Of a DNA stretch of 32,484 nt, positions 2-3,304 are shown one piece after another. The notes under the pieces were generated by a model. That model saw only the letters and a list, made by a program, of their open reading frames with translations. It did no database searches and was not told where the DNA came from. The DNA is from Flavobacteriales bacterium. Lineage in GTDB: Bacteria > Bacteroidota > Bacteroidia > Flavobacteriales_D > Sanyastnellaceae. The stretch is from positions 1 to 32,484 of the forward strand of contig JADFAK010000182.1 in the NCBI GenBank assembly GCA_015665315.1. Direction: 5' to 3'. Position 1 is the stretch's first letter. Each line of letters opens with the position of its first letter. The position numbers and the translations under genes are program-made.

Positions 2-1966
2 AATTCTGCGGCAACCGATATCCTGGAAACAGGGATTGACTTGCTGAGTGCCGTGGATGAAAATCACTCTGGACTCATTCCACTTTACCAACAGATGGCT
101 GAAGTGCTTCTCGAAACGGGTTCGTTTCAGGAGGCCTATGATGCGATAAGTCATGCGGTATATCTGTTCACACGAAGTAATTCGGCACAACACCCTAAAT
201 TGGGTGAATTGTACGCTCTACATGCTCAAATTTGTCTGCAACTCAAGCTTTTTGAAGAAGCCGAAGACCTTGCGGAAAAAGCCATGCAGGTCTTCAGTAC
301 ACAAGTGAATCCGACGCAGGAAAGCCCTCTCAATCTCCAGTCCTACCGCGTTTCAAAAGGCCTGGTCAAAGCCGCCGAAGCCATGGGAGATGTGTACTTG
401 GCCATGGACGATACGGAAAAAGCTTTGCAAGTTTGGAACTTGGGTCTTGATTGCGTGGACCAGTTACGAACCATGACCGCTTATATCCAATCGCGCATCG
501 AACTGTACAAGCAAGCCGAGTCGCTCAACACGAAATATGTGGTCTTGCTGCTCGAACTCAACGAGGCGGGAGCGCGCAACGAAAAGGACCTCCTCCGCGC
601 CATGGAACACGGAAAAGCTTTTAGCCTCAACCTGAAATCCGAGCCCGACGACAATAGCCAACTTCGCAACGAATTGATGACCCAACGAGCGTACTGGGAA
701 CGGGTGTTGTATGATTTGAGCGATGAAAAAAAGACGCGACAAGCGCAAATGGAGCTAGTCCTCATCGATACCAGATTGGACTCCCTAAAAACGGAGCACT
801 ACGCTCAGTTCAGCTCTCAATTTCTAGATCAAGTGATCCAGATGTCCTATCAAGCAGCTTTTCTTTCATTCTTCAATCGCGACACGCTCACAATTGGAGC
901 AGTGGTGGCCGAAGGGGAGATTCGCATCCACCGACTGAATGGAAGGCACTTAGCGGAAGATATTGCGGCTTTCAAAAGATCCTACACCGATCTCGATTAT
1001 ATTCTAGGCCATCCCCATGAGGCAGATTCATCATTTGCCCTAGGCAGTGAAAATCTTTACAATAAGTTGATCGGTCCCTGCGAACAGTACTTGAAGGTCA
1101 AGAATAACTGGTACATATCGGCCGATAATCTCTTGCTCGATCTTCACTTCGGTCTGCTCGGAAAGGCCGATTCCCACCTGTCCGTCGACTACCAAACCTA
1201 TCCGTATCTGCTTCGAGATCATTCCATTTCCTACCTGCCGTCCCTCAATCTAGCCGGTAAGTCGCGCCACATAGCATCACAAGGGTTCTCGGTTTGGAAT
1301 TTCAATGAAGACAGCAGCGACAACTTTGCCGGTGAGGCCAATACGATCAGTGAATTCTTCGATGTCGACTTGTTCGAGGGGGTGGCCTGCTCCGAGTCGA
1401 AGTTTAAAAGCCTGGCCCACGAATCTTCCCTCATTCACATTGGTTGCCATGGCGAAACCGGCGAAAGTCCATTCGATACCAAGATTCAATTTGCGCGAGA
1501 TAGTCTGAATGATGGCGAACTCACCTACGCCGAGGTAGGATGGATGCAATTGGCCACCGAGCTAGTTACGCTCTCCGCATGTAAAACAGGAAGTGGTAAA
1601 TCAAGGGCCGGTGAGTGGACCCAAAGCGTCGCCTACGGATTTATTAGTGCAGGCTGCCCCACGGTTATCTCTAGCTCATGGAATATTCCCGACGATGCCA
1701 CACAGCAGGTCATGTCTAGGTTTTATGAAAATTTGTCGATAGGAAATTCGTCTCTCAATTCTCTGCGACAAGCGCAAATGTCGGTTCTCGAAAAATCCGA
1801 CAAGTTGCACGCCCATCCTTTCTACTGGGCCGGTATGGTGCATCAAGGGAATGAAGTGAGCATAGAGCCTACTCGCTCTCAATTCAACTGGAAATTCTGG
1901 GGATTGCTAGGGGTGGTATTCCTCGTACTGGTCTGGCTTAGAAGCCGCAGTAAGAATCAATCTTGA
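2..1966 (+). CDS. TPR-CHAT domain protein, membrane anchored (5' partial)
   Basis: The frame is open from base 2 to the TGA at 1964-1966, so the start lies outside the window (654 residues visible). Counting from the TTG at 41, the first ~250 residues are helical and TPR-like. A CHAT (caspase/separase-like clan CD peptidase) domain fills roughly residues 395-610. The expected catalytic dyad is present: His470 in HIGCHG and Cys514 in LSACKTG, followed by the family-typical SSSWNIPD and HPFYWAGMV segments. A hydrophobic helix at about 619-633 ends in a basic tail (RSRSK). The basic tail suggests a cytoplasmic C-terminus, which would put the TPR-CHAT part in the periplasm if a signal peptide exists upstream (not visible). 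CHAT proteins are cysteine proteases or scaffolds; the substrate here is unknown. The gene converges on an ECF sigma/anti-sigma pair, overlapping the anti-sigma gene by 10 bases. Confidence 0.9.
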   Translation, partial: NSAATDILETGIDLLSAVDENHSGLIPLYQQMAEVLLETGSFQEAYDAISHAVYLFTRSNSAQHPKLGELYALHAQICLQLKLFEEAEDLAEKAMQVFSTQVNPTQESPLNLQSYRVSKGLVKAAEAMGDVYLAMDDTEKALQVWNLGLDCVDQLRTMTAYIQSRIELYKQAESLNTKYVVLLLELNEAGARNEKDLLRAMEHGKAFSLNLKSEPDDNSQLRNELMTQRAYWERVLYDLSDEKKTRQAQMELVLIDTRLDSLKTEHYAQFSSQFLDQVIQMSYQAAFLSFFNRDTLTIGAVVAEGEIRIHRLNGRHLAEDIAAFKRSYTDLDYILGHPHEADSSFALGSENLYNKLIGPCEQYLKVKNNWYISADNLLLDLHFGLLGKADSHLSVDYQTYPYLLRDHSISYLPSLNLAGKSRHIASQGFSVWNFNEDSSDNFAGEANTISEFFDVDLFEGVACSESKFKSLAHESSLIHIGCHGETGESPFDTKIQFARDSLNDGELTYAEVGWMQLATELVTLSACKTGSGKSRAGEWTQSVAYGFISAGCPTVISSSWNIPDDATQQVMSRFYENLSIGNSSLNSLRQAQMSVLEKSDKLHAHPFYWAGMVHQGNEVSIEPTRSQFNWKFWGLLGVVFLVLVWLRSRSKNQS

Positions 1967-2676
1967 GGAATAGAAAGCCATTTTTGAGCATCTGCAGCGT
2001 ACTTCCCTTTGGTCTCAACAACAGCCTGCATCGCGCGTTCGGCACGGTCGTTCTGTTCTGTCATAGCGTATGAAAGAGCCGTATACCACAAAGAGTACTC
2101 GGCCAGTCGTGTTTCTTCCAAACCGTCGAGCATAGCCACGGCCATCGGATAATCCGCTGTCTTGAAATAACTTACGCCTATCATAAAGTCCAATTGGATA
2201 CTTTCCTCAAAATCACCTTCCGATAACACAAGCACTTGCTCAAAGTCTTGGCTGTCAAATGCCGACTTCACTTTGGCTAGATCATCATTCGATCGTGTTT
2301 CAAATTCGACTTCCACCGGAAGCGCCGCATAGTCGCAGGCCACGGAATGTCGACTGTCTTGCAGCCCTATAAATGCAATTACCAATATGGCGGCCGCAGC
2401 AACGGCAATCGCAATTTTTGGCCACACGTTAAGCTTGCGGACTTTCGTTTCTTTCGTTGACATAATCTCCTTGTTTTTTCCTTGGTCTAGCCACTTTTCT
2501 AGGGCCTCTCGGTCCTTCCCATGCTCTTCATAGAAAGTGTGAATGCCCTCAACTATTGCTTGCGCTTGCTCGTCTGACTTCACGATGTTTTCAACGCGAG
2601 CAGCCGACTCGGAGCCGAGTAGTCCGTCGACATAATCAATCAGCAGTTCGTAGGTATATCGTTGTTCCTCTTTCAT
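1957..2676 (-). CDS. single-pass anti-sigma-like protein with periplasmic TPR-like region
   Basis: A 239-residue protein. Residues 1-80 are charged and helical and start with LLIDYVDGLL, typical of the cytoplasmic sigma-binding segment of Bacteroidota anti-sigma factors; no HxxxCxxC zinc motif is visible. One membrane helix lies at about 86-105 (Ala/Ile/Val rich). The remaining ~130 residues would be periplasmic and contain TPR-like helix pairs (YFKTADYPMAVAMLDGL and following). The start overlaps the stop of the upstream sigma gene in an ATGA arrangement (2673-2676), implying translational coupling. I infer that it holds the sigma factor at the inner membrane and senses through its periplasmic TPR part. 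The anti-sigma role rests on context and topology, not on a diagnostic motif. The alternative is a generic TPR membrane protein. Confidence 0.72.
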   Translation of the reverse strand: MKEEQRYTYELLIDYVDGLLGSESAARVENIVKSDEQAQAIVEGIHTFYEEHGKDREALEKWLDQGKNKEIMSTKETKVRKLNVWPKIAIAVAAAAILVIAFIGLQDSRHSVACDYAALPVEVEFETRSNDDLAKVKSAFDSQDFEQVLVLSEGDFEESIQLDFMIGVSYFKTADYPMAVAMLDGLEETRLAEYSLWYTALSYAMTEQNDRAERAMQAVVETKGKYAADAQKWLSIPQD

Positions 2677-3194
2677 GCAAGTGCTTTTTTCAATTTATTC
2701 CGTGCAGTTGACTTTTTATTAGCGACCGTTTTCTCGGCCATTCCAGTTTTTTCCGCGATCTCTCGGTTGTCGTATCCATCTTCGTGCATCCCCCATACCG
2801 AAAGTTCGTCCTCAGACAAAGCGCGCTCCTTGATTTTGTCGATCCGCTGTACGTCAAAATACTCGTCGGCCAGCGAAGTTGCTACCGTTTGAAACCGGTC
2901 CTTCACTTGGTGCAGAATTTCTTTCCGGCGGTTATTTGTCATCCACCACGTACTTATGTCTCGTTTACATACTGTGTACAACCATGCTCGCGGATTTTCG
3001 ATCGGCGGTTTTTTAGGTTGCTCAAACAATTTCACGAACGCGTCCGTAGCCAGGTTCTCTGCCATGTTTTGATCTTTGGTGAGTCCCAAACAATAGAGCA
3101 TAAGCTCTCGATACAGTTCGCTGTATAATTTCCCAAATGACTCATTGTCACCTGAGCAGTATTTCTCCCAATGTAATAGAAGGCTATTCTTCAT
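2673..3194 (-). CDS. ECF-type RNA polymerase sigma factor
   Basis: About 173 residues. Region 2 runs from FGKLYSELYRELMLYCLG through NLATDAFVKLFE and PRAWLYTVCKRD. Region 4 is LSVWGMHEDGYDNREIAEKTGMAEKTVANKKSTARNKL in outline, with the helix-turn-helix around DNREIAEKTGM. The frame also opens at a TTG at 3216-3218, but the ATG at 3192-3194 gives the expected N-terminus and is preferred. It is the first gene of a two-gene unit with the membrane anti-sigma-like protein (4-base overlap). Region 2.4 and the linker are ordinary for the Bacteroidota ECF group. The regulon cannot be read from the window. No clear TAnnTTTG promoter was found; the nearest match is TATCATTG at 3235-3242 on the minus strand. 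Confidence 0.88.
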   Translation of the reverse strand: MKNSLLLHWEKYCSGDNESFGKLYSELYRELMLYCLGLTKDQNMAENLATDAFVKLFEQPKKPPIENPRAWLYTVCKRDISTWWMTNNRRKEILHQVKDRFQTVATSLADEYFDVQRIDKIKERALSEDELSVWGMHEDGYDNREIAEKTGMAEKTVANKKSTARNKLKKALA

Positions 3195-3304
3195 TGATAC
3201 CGGTTCCTCGGCCTTCAATTAGTAGACGCATGAACAATGATATTTTCCCGAAAATAAAAAATGATCTGCAACACGCCCCTACGATTGGCCATAATAAGGG
3301 TGAT

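Follow-up and report, generated by a model that had tools for sequence, protein, structure and literature searches.

Matched changes in a CHAT protease and one site of an anti-sigma factor suggest a proteolytic gene switch without CRISPR in Bacteroidota

At one end of a contig from a Flavobacteriales bacterium, the gene of a TPR-CHAT protease lies beside an operon for an extracytoplasmic function (ECF) sigma factor and a single-pass membrane anti-sigma factor. The contig (JADFAK010000182.1 of GenBank assembly GCA_015665315.1; C47 in our numbering) was analysed over its whole length of 32,484 nucleotides and is called the window here; its base 1 is the contig end and falls inside the CHAT gene. 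We found that a CHAT residue near the catalytic His/Cys dyad and one site in the predicted periplasmic linker of the anti-sigma factor change together across the phylum, and these matched changes suggest that CHAT cuts the anti-sigma factor to switch genes on, without CRISPR. With a probability of roughly 0.7, the three proteins would form one envelope-signalling module in which CHAT, as the site-1 protease, cuts the anti-sigma linker after Arg128 and the sigma factor is freed. An earlier note on this DNA had proposed a proteolytic switch of this kind outside CRISPR, and the covariation lends that proposal support.

Results

The anti-sigma linker and a CHAT residue change together

Beyond the transmembrane (TM) segment of these anti-sigma factors, the linker carries a short motif that in most proteins closes with Arg, a small residue coming next (VEFETR-SND in the window); some lineages have LPVxM-S in place of this Arg-Gly/Ser motif. 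We compared 72 anti-sigma/CHAT pairs, consisting of 48 first pairs (58 listed minus ten) and 24 from loci fetched after the pattern had been seen. The added pairs are every newly fetched locus in which an anti-sigma hit and a CHAT protein occurred together, some of them from genomes already used, and the set includes the near-copy rows L097/L105 and L034/L036. Six of the dropped pairs came from different operons near a CHAT or from different types of anti-sigma factor (L036_2, L034_11, L030_4, L074_1, L075_3 and L083_2). The remaining four were divergent anti-sigma proteins (L083_7, L084_11, L087_2 and L078_6), which we viewed apart: their Arg-Ser lies approximately 40-60 residues past the TM segment, a greater distance than in the other proteins, and the CHAT Glu is present in 4/4. 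The divergent anti-sigma factors of L078, L083 and L084 have in common an apparently non-TPR C-terminal ending (YYWKLE...VGKF).

Linkers were labelled by an automatic rule that was written after the first 48 linkers had been seen. The residue that followed Arg at the first rule match (n = 53) was G in 28, S in 14, A in 5, N in 4, and T and D in one each, the rule itself demanding one of these six residues. With residues numbered from the first base read in the window, the linker label was compared with the CHAT column of E445. The rule gave 53 Arg linkers with Glu and one without, 13 Met linkers without Glu and one with, and two Lys linkers of each kind (Fisher test, 1.1e-11). Among the 24 later pairs the corresponding counts were 14 and 1 for Arg, 5 and 1 for Met, and, for Lys, two without Glu and one with. 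Two labels were corrected by eye: in L173 (VTMSEERS) the rule had caught a later Arg, giving the single Arg linker without Glu, and L109 (DGVRSKDM) had been scored as Lys. After these corrections, Glu accompanied Arg in 54/54 pairs, was absent from 14/15 pairs with Met (alignment gaps in L178 and L182 are counted among the 14, and L157 and L162 were scored as Met through Met-Asp) and accompanied Lys in 1/3. Removal of the doubtful L195, which has Arg only through a later KRG, leaves 53/53. A Met at this site of L088 in the raw alignment was rejected, as the linker reads LRS.

In the first column scan, by mutual information, the E445 column came seventh, behind many-state columns. It ranks 1/394 by association with the linker (3.7e-14), followed by S525 (2.4e-8) and D564. 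In the CHAT model, E445 lies near the start of the helix after strand 428-434. Three residues form the caspase S1 pocket: the first follows strand 1, the second precedes the Cys by two positions, and the third comes after a Trp; we take E445, S525 and D564 to occupy about the same places. Covariation between the linker and CHAT positions close to the dyad is what would be expected of a protease and its substrate.

The same agreement is seen in four draft genomes in which anti-sigma factor and CHAT are on different contigs and may perhaps act in trans. G428 and G276 have an Arg linker and a Glu CHAT, G054 combines a Met linker with Phe in CHAT, and G362 has a Met linker and two CHAT proteins, one with Leu and the other with Asp. 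In five genomes with an anti-sigma hit and no CHAT found (G259, G381, G223, G133 and G129), the linker is without Arg-Gly/Ser.

The association persists in tree-aware tests

On a tree of the 48 CHAT proteins, the Met group needs three changes, and five Met rows form one clade. The 72-row tree, built without the studied columns, requires five changes for Glu and nine for the uncorrected linker label. A likelihood test of correlated evolution between E445 and the linker, with corrected labels, gave a likelihood ratio (LR) of 33.6 (p = 9e-7). We applied a tree-aware test to 225 of 382 eligible columns, taking the ten best covariation columns first and the others in random order. E445 again came first (LR 32.0), followed by D564 (18.8), G481 (18.5), L602 (16.4) and S525 (15.2), with a median of 3.2. 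Two of these top five columns adjoin the dyad in sequence, G481 and S525 each standing two positions ahead of a dyad residue, the His and the Cys respectively.

CHAT and the sigma/anti-sigma pair are neighbours across the phylum

When 60 genomes were searched, the window's own included, the window CHAT was matched in 14 and the window anti-sigma factor in four, that is, in 13/59 and 3/59 relatives. In the three relatives that match the anti-sigma factor (G012, G031 and G039), its gene and that of CHAT are side by side. The tail-to-tail layout of the window recurs in G012 and G031; in G039, G050, G053 and G057 the genes are on one strand in the order sigma, anti-sigma, CHAT. The same-genus genome G001 had no match for CHAT or the anti-sigma factor at E 0.001, and neither a scan of viral contigs nor a scan of genome contigs with the single protein returned a relative of the window CHAT.

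A phylum-wide Pfam search found CHAT in at least 98 of 198 genomes. We read 18 regions from relatives and 60 from the phylum-wide search, the latter mostly one genome per genus and drawn from the better-scoring CHAT matches among the matches listed. These regions contain 83 CHAT open reading frames (ORFs), all of which keep the catalytic Cys. An ECF gene lies within 1.3 kb of 29/83; 11 of these have sigma upstream on the same strand, 10 are convergent, 7 divergent, and one has sigma downstream on the same strand. The density of ECF genes in the CHAT flanks falls from 0.14 per kb in the first kb to 0.03 or less past 3 kb. Because ECF genes are thus concentrated in the first kb beside CHAT, the arrangement is more than chance. 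In the phylum part, 20/64 CHATs are near an ECF gene: 15/27 of those with a C-terminal hydrophobic segment versus 5/37 of those without.

In the reciprocal direction, we searched the 198 genomes with a profile (A1) of 17 anti-sigma proteins and examined the 42 best hits (E < 1e-22), nine of which are profile members. CHAT lies within 8 kb of at least 32/42 hits, 28 by listed CHATs and four more on reading the loci (G168, G247, G219:C1 and G183:C1). These counts bear out the conserved co-occurrence that the earlier note had named as its check. In L092 and L095 the anti-sigma gene abuts CHAT and no adjacent sigma gene was found, and in L065, L077, L080 and L099 CHAT stands between sigma and anti-sigma; both arrangements point to anti-sigma and CHAT as the tightest link.

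Some loci depart from the usual arrangement. In L152 (G123:C116, 2-7855), one of the ten hits without CHAT, the sigma/anti-sigma pair belongs to the same family and is divergent to a row of genes for two secreted caspases (Peptidase_C14) and a trypsin-like protein, and it looks as if another caspase-fold protease had replaced CHAT. In L165 (G173:C31, 7580-8332), a CHAT ORF of 250 amino acids follows straight after the anti-sigma gene; it has a hydrophobic N-terminus, a C-terminal segment and no room for a TPR arm. In genomes of family f33 (L064, L079, L081, L088, L098, L100 and L109), the sigma/anti-sigma pair lies 2.5-3.3 kb from a CHAT lacking the C-terminal segment, the linker having Arg and CHAT Glu. 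In L102, L146, L147, L148 and L149, a gene for a protein of approximately 670-700 amino acids with a signal-like start stands between a divergent sigma operon and CHAT. Four of these intervening proteins were scanned and carry PKD, beta-helix, LRR or type IX secretion system-type domains; a role as regulon member or ligand is possible.

CHAT is likely periplasmic

By a simple hydropathy rule, and with the window CHAT left out, a signal-like N-terminus is present in 62/71 and a C-terminal segment in 59/71 CHAT proteins of the module; the corresponding counts for non-module CHATs are 40/48 and 13/48. Because most relatives have both a signal-like N-terminus and a C-terminal anchor, the CHAT domain and the anti-sigma TPR domain would share the periplasm, as the earlier note had supposed. 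The module CHAT is thus likely tethered by its C-terminus in the periplasm, opposite the part of the anti-sigma factor that lies there. As far as the relatives allow a judgement, neither of the two observations by which the note said it would be refuted was borne out.

The three genes of the window

The features of the locus are listed in Table 1. The CHAT protein matches PF12770 (2.7e-42) with 145.6 bits, above the curated cut-off of 24, and has both His and Cys, which places it in the Pfam CHAT family; TPR_12 is matched at 2.5e-11. The dyad H483/C527 is intact, and hydropathy gives a single C-terminal hydrophobic segment. A query with the first 130 bases of the window found no overlapping contig end in the same genome. 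The CHAT and anti-sigma genes overlap by 10 bp tail to tail, and the anti-sigma and sigma genes by 4 bp. The gene organization, dyad and anchor described in the earlier note therefore hold, its numbering of His470 and Cys514 counting from a TTG at base 41.

The model of the anti-sigma factor (mean predicted local distance difference test score, pLDDT, 84) has an N-terminal helical part, a helix (86-107) across the hydrophobic segment and, after a less confident stretch, helices that begin at residue 131 and resemble TPR. One TM segment and a gene encoded with an ECF gene mark it as a membrane anti-sigma factor, for which inhibition of sigma is predicted. The sigma protein matches Sigma70_r2 (1.5e-6; 28.3 bits, cut-off 24), TIGR02985 (1.7e-19) and TIGR02937 (47.9 bits, cut-off 42.9); we counted it as an ECF factor with Sigma70 regions 2 and 4, region 4_2 being slightly under its cut-off (22.9 vs 25.7). 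The genome has one match to an M50 protease. Consensus scans of the locus for promoters and terminators were uninformative.

Table 1. Features of the CHAT, anti-sigma and sigma genes in the window
Feature	Position	Strand	Basis or remark
TPR-CHAT protease gene	2..1966	+	654 codons read; 5' end cut by contig end; ORF call, Pfam and fold
Codon E445	1334..1336	+	CHAT residue co-varying with anti-sigma linker; putative S1-pocket acid
Codon H483, catalytic His	1448..1450	+	Motif and codon reading
Codon S525	1574..1576	+	Two before catalytic Cys; co-varying
Codon C527, catalytic Cys	1580..1582	+	Motif and codon reading
Codon D564	1691..1693	+	Four after invariant W560; co-varying
CHAT C-terminal hydrophobic anchor, residues 628-646, then short basic tail	1883..1939	+	Hydropathy; model helix 628-653
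Single-TM anti-sigma factor, 239 amino acids	1957..2676	-	Putative role, from homologues with ECF gene neighbours
Anti-sigma TPR domain, predicted periplasmic	1960..2286	-	Foldseek best match YbgF TPR, E 2.7e-3
Anti-sigma linker from TM to TPR, predicted periplasmic, residues 107-130	2287..2358	-	Model confidence below that of TPR part
Predicted scissile bond R128-S129	2290..2295 (R128 codon 2295-2293)	-	
Anti-sigma TM segment, residues 88-106	2359..2415	-	Hydropathy and model
ECF sigma factor	2673..3194 (ATG start); TTG at 3218 also possible	-	Pfam/TIGR matches

Fold and comparison with known systems

The CHAT model (pLDDT 81) had Csx29 as its best Foldseek match (2e-15; VIA Z 32); other fold matches were separase (Z approximately 27), DdvA (Z 23) and the Arg-specific gingipain R (Z 19). 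In sequence searches of the PDB, an alignment of the whole protein returned mainly TPR proteins, and a CHAT-only alignment returned Csx29, DdvA and SAVED-CHAT.

According to the papers cited here, Csx29 of the type III-E CRISPR complex Craspase cuts the sigma inhibitor Csx30 and thereby relieves a sigma factor (PMC10028731). The cut is placed between residues 427 and 429, in a loop with M427 (PMC10028731), or alternatively after L407 (PMC9729208). The window shares with Craspase (Csx29, Csx30, CASP-sigma/RpoE) the TPR-CHAT fold, the His-Cys dyad and a neighbouring ECF sigma factor with its inhibitor. It differs in that its CHAT is predicted to be periplasmic and membrane-anchored rather than RNA-guided, and in that Arg precedes the predicted cut. 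The own genome had no match to a RAMP-family (Cas7-type) effector, the window, to which that search was confined, contains no CRISPR-like direct repeat, and the window CHAT scores 34.8 bits against the NCBIfam Csx29 cut-off of 300. We therefore regard the relation to Craspase as analogy and not membership; of the comparison drawn in the earlier note, the fold and the logic stand, and inclusion in the Craspase systems does not.

DdvA of Myxococcus xanthus (PDB 8rot, 8rw5) is a TM anti-sigma factor with a TPR-CHAT-like part, matched by sequence at 4e-10. Its active site is reportedly incomplete, and self-cutting in trans is said to have been proposed. DdvA has the ECF partner DdvS, which controls a defence island (PMC12288465). 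Unlike in DdvA, anti-sigma factor and CHAT of the window are two proteins rather than a single chain, with genes on opposite strands and an intact dyad; by analogy, the window system is a two-protein relative of the DdvA idea that has kept its dyad.

The one-TM anti-sigma factor, the predicted periplasmic first cut and the M50 protease in the genome resemble DegS/RseA/RseP. DegS is a PDZ serine protease, and the first protease here would instead be a CHAT cysteine protease. Eukaryotic separase has the same protease-domain fold and also an Arg before the cut, which falls after Arg in EXXR, and its P1-binding residue D2151 is reported to correspond to K670 in Csx29 (PMC9729208); it works, unlike the window system, on cohesin. 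CalpL/CalpT/CalpS likewise comprises a protease, an anti-sigma factor, which is cleaved, and an ECF sigma factor (PMC11417357), but its protease is of the Lon type, activated by cyclic tetra-adenylate in type III CRISPR. CHAT genes also lie near the genes of ECF54 sigma factors, for which proteolysis has been proposed (PMC8999054). A PADLOC defence search gave no hit for the window CHAT or anti-sigma factor, a weak CARF-model hit for sigma, and weak hits for a neighbour and one TPR part. We found no report of the Bacteroidota arrangement in the open-access literature searched, which did not cover the main DdvA and ECF classification papers, so that an earlier description is possible.

Discussion

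From the covariation, the conserved neighbourhood and what is known of these protein families, we propose the following mechanism. As family knowledge suggests, the anti-sigma factor would bind the ECF sigma factor through its cytoplasmic N-terminus and keep it at the inner membrane. CHAT, exported and C-terminally anchored as hydropathy in relatives indicates, would face the periplasm, and a trigger signal would perhaps be sensed by its TPR arm. The separase-like CHAT domain may then cut the linker at R128|S129, between the membrane and the TPR domain. By analogy, loss of the TPR domain would let an RseP-like M50 protease release the sigma factor.

Several observations weigh against this proposal. 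The contig end removes the N-terminus of the window CHAT, the start codon of which is unread. At the level of loci, 54/83 CHATs have no ECF gene inside 1.3 kb, and no CHAT was found inside 8 kb for 10/42 anti-sigma hits; one of these, G215:C13:8147, was not read, and the region of another, G121:C61:173352, has neither a sigma gene nor CHAT. L151 and L160 keep Arg-Gly without a nearby CHAT, their genomes (G145 and G121) holding CHATs elsewhere, and in G381, where no CHAT was found, the linker reads Met-Ser. In the covariation itself, L176 is an exception with a Met linker and a Glu CHAT, which lies 3.6 kb off, and Lys linkers are mixed, with Glu in L179, Val in L189 and Met in L190. The assignment of the co-varying columns to the S1 pocket is putative and drawn from caspase positions. 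Because Glu is the usual CHAT residue at the E445 column, found in 45/48 non-module CHATs (L026-L115), the signal rests on few losses (five changes on the tree), and Arg may be preferred by CHAT proteins in general. An independent-pairs sign test, underpowered with four pairs on supported branches, gave 1-2 that agree and none that disagree (p = 0.5-1).

The main rival is that the linker is an uncut pseudo-substrate that holds CHAT off, so that the sigma module would restrain a protease aimed at other envelope proteins. Tight binding in the pocket without cutting would fit the covariation too. Securin acts on separase, a close fold, as a pseudo-substrate, and separase is inhibited in a stable complex with it (PMC9729208). 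We nevertheless consider this rival unlikely: nearly all linkers have a small residue after Arg, even if the rule demands one of six, the genes of CHAT substrates are often found close by (PMC9729208), and in other protease/sigma systems the inhibitor is cleaved (PMC10028731, PMC11417357). A slightly smaller chance is left to common ancestry, by which the Met-linker lineages would form a small number of CHAT subfamilies in which Glu is missing by coincidence. The clade of five Met rows and the small number of independent changes favour this account; against it stand the three changes needed in 48 rows and the five Glu changes in 72, and E445 exceeds every other column tested after correction for the tree.

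Two further alternatives would separate CHAT from the linker. ECF operons often adjoin genes under their control, and CHAT, at times several kb off with a secreted-protein gene between, could be a mere target gene of sigma that makes no direct contact with the anti-sigma factor. This is improbable to a greater degree, since it predicts neither the covariation of pocket and linker, nor anti-sigma/CHAT pairs without an adjacent sigma gene (L092 and L095), nor the agreement of pairs on different contigs. Least probable of all, and in our view a very long shot, is a cytoplasmic CHAT whose target, on the pattern of CRISPR type III-E, would be the sigma factor or the N-terminus of the anti-sigma factor. 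Csx29 and Csx30 do act in the cytoplasm, and the unread N-terminus of the window CHAT would allow it, but signal-like N-termini and C-terminal segments prevail among the module CHATs and the co-varying site lies beyond the anti-sigma TM segment, away from the anti-sigma N-terminus.

Cleavage of the linker by CHAT thus remains our preferred reading, and for the phylum as a whole we see an even chance that it extends further. Periplasmic, anchored, separase-like proteases would then switch ECF sigma factors throughout Bacteroidota by cutting linkers, and pocket and cut residue would have been switched together several times, between Glu with Arg and a small or hydrophobic residue with Met. This non-CRISPR switch would have Craspase and the fused DdvA as relatives, and for many CHATs that are still uncharacterised the preferred cut would be predictable from a single pocket residue. 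A likely substrate, a cut site and a specificity residue can thereby be named for a large set of CHAT proteins to which no function had been assigned, and the logic of Craspase gains a context outside CRISPR. If the proposal is true, Bacteroidota would possess, besides the DegS type, a first protease of the caspase/separase type for their envelope signalling.

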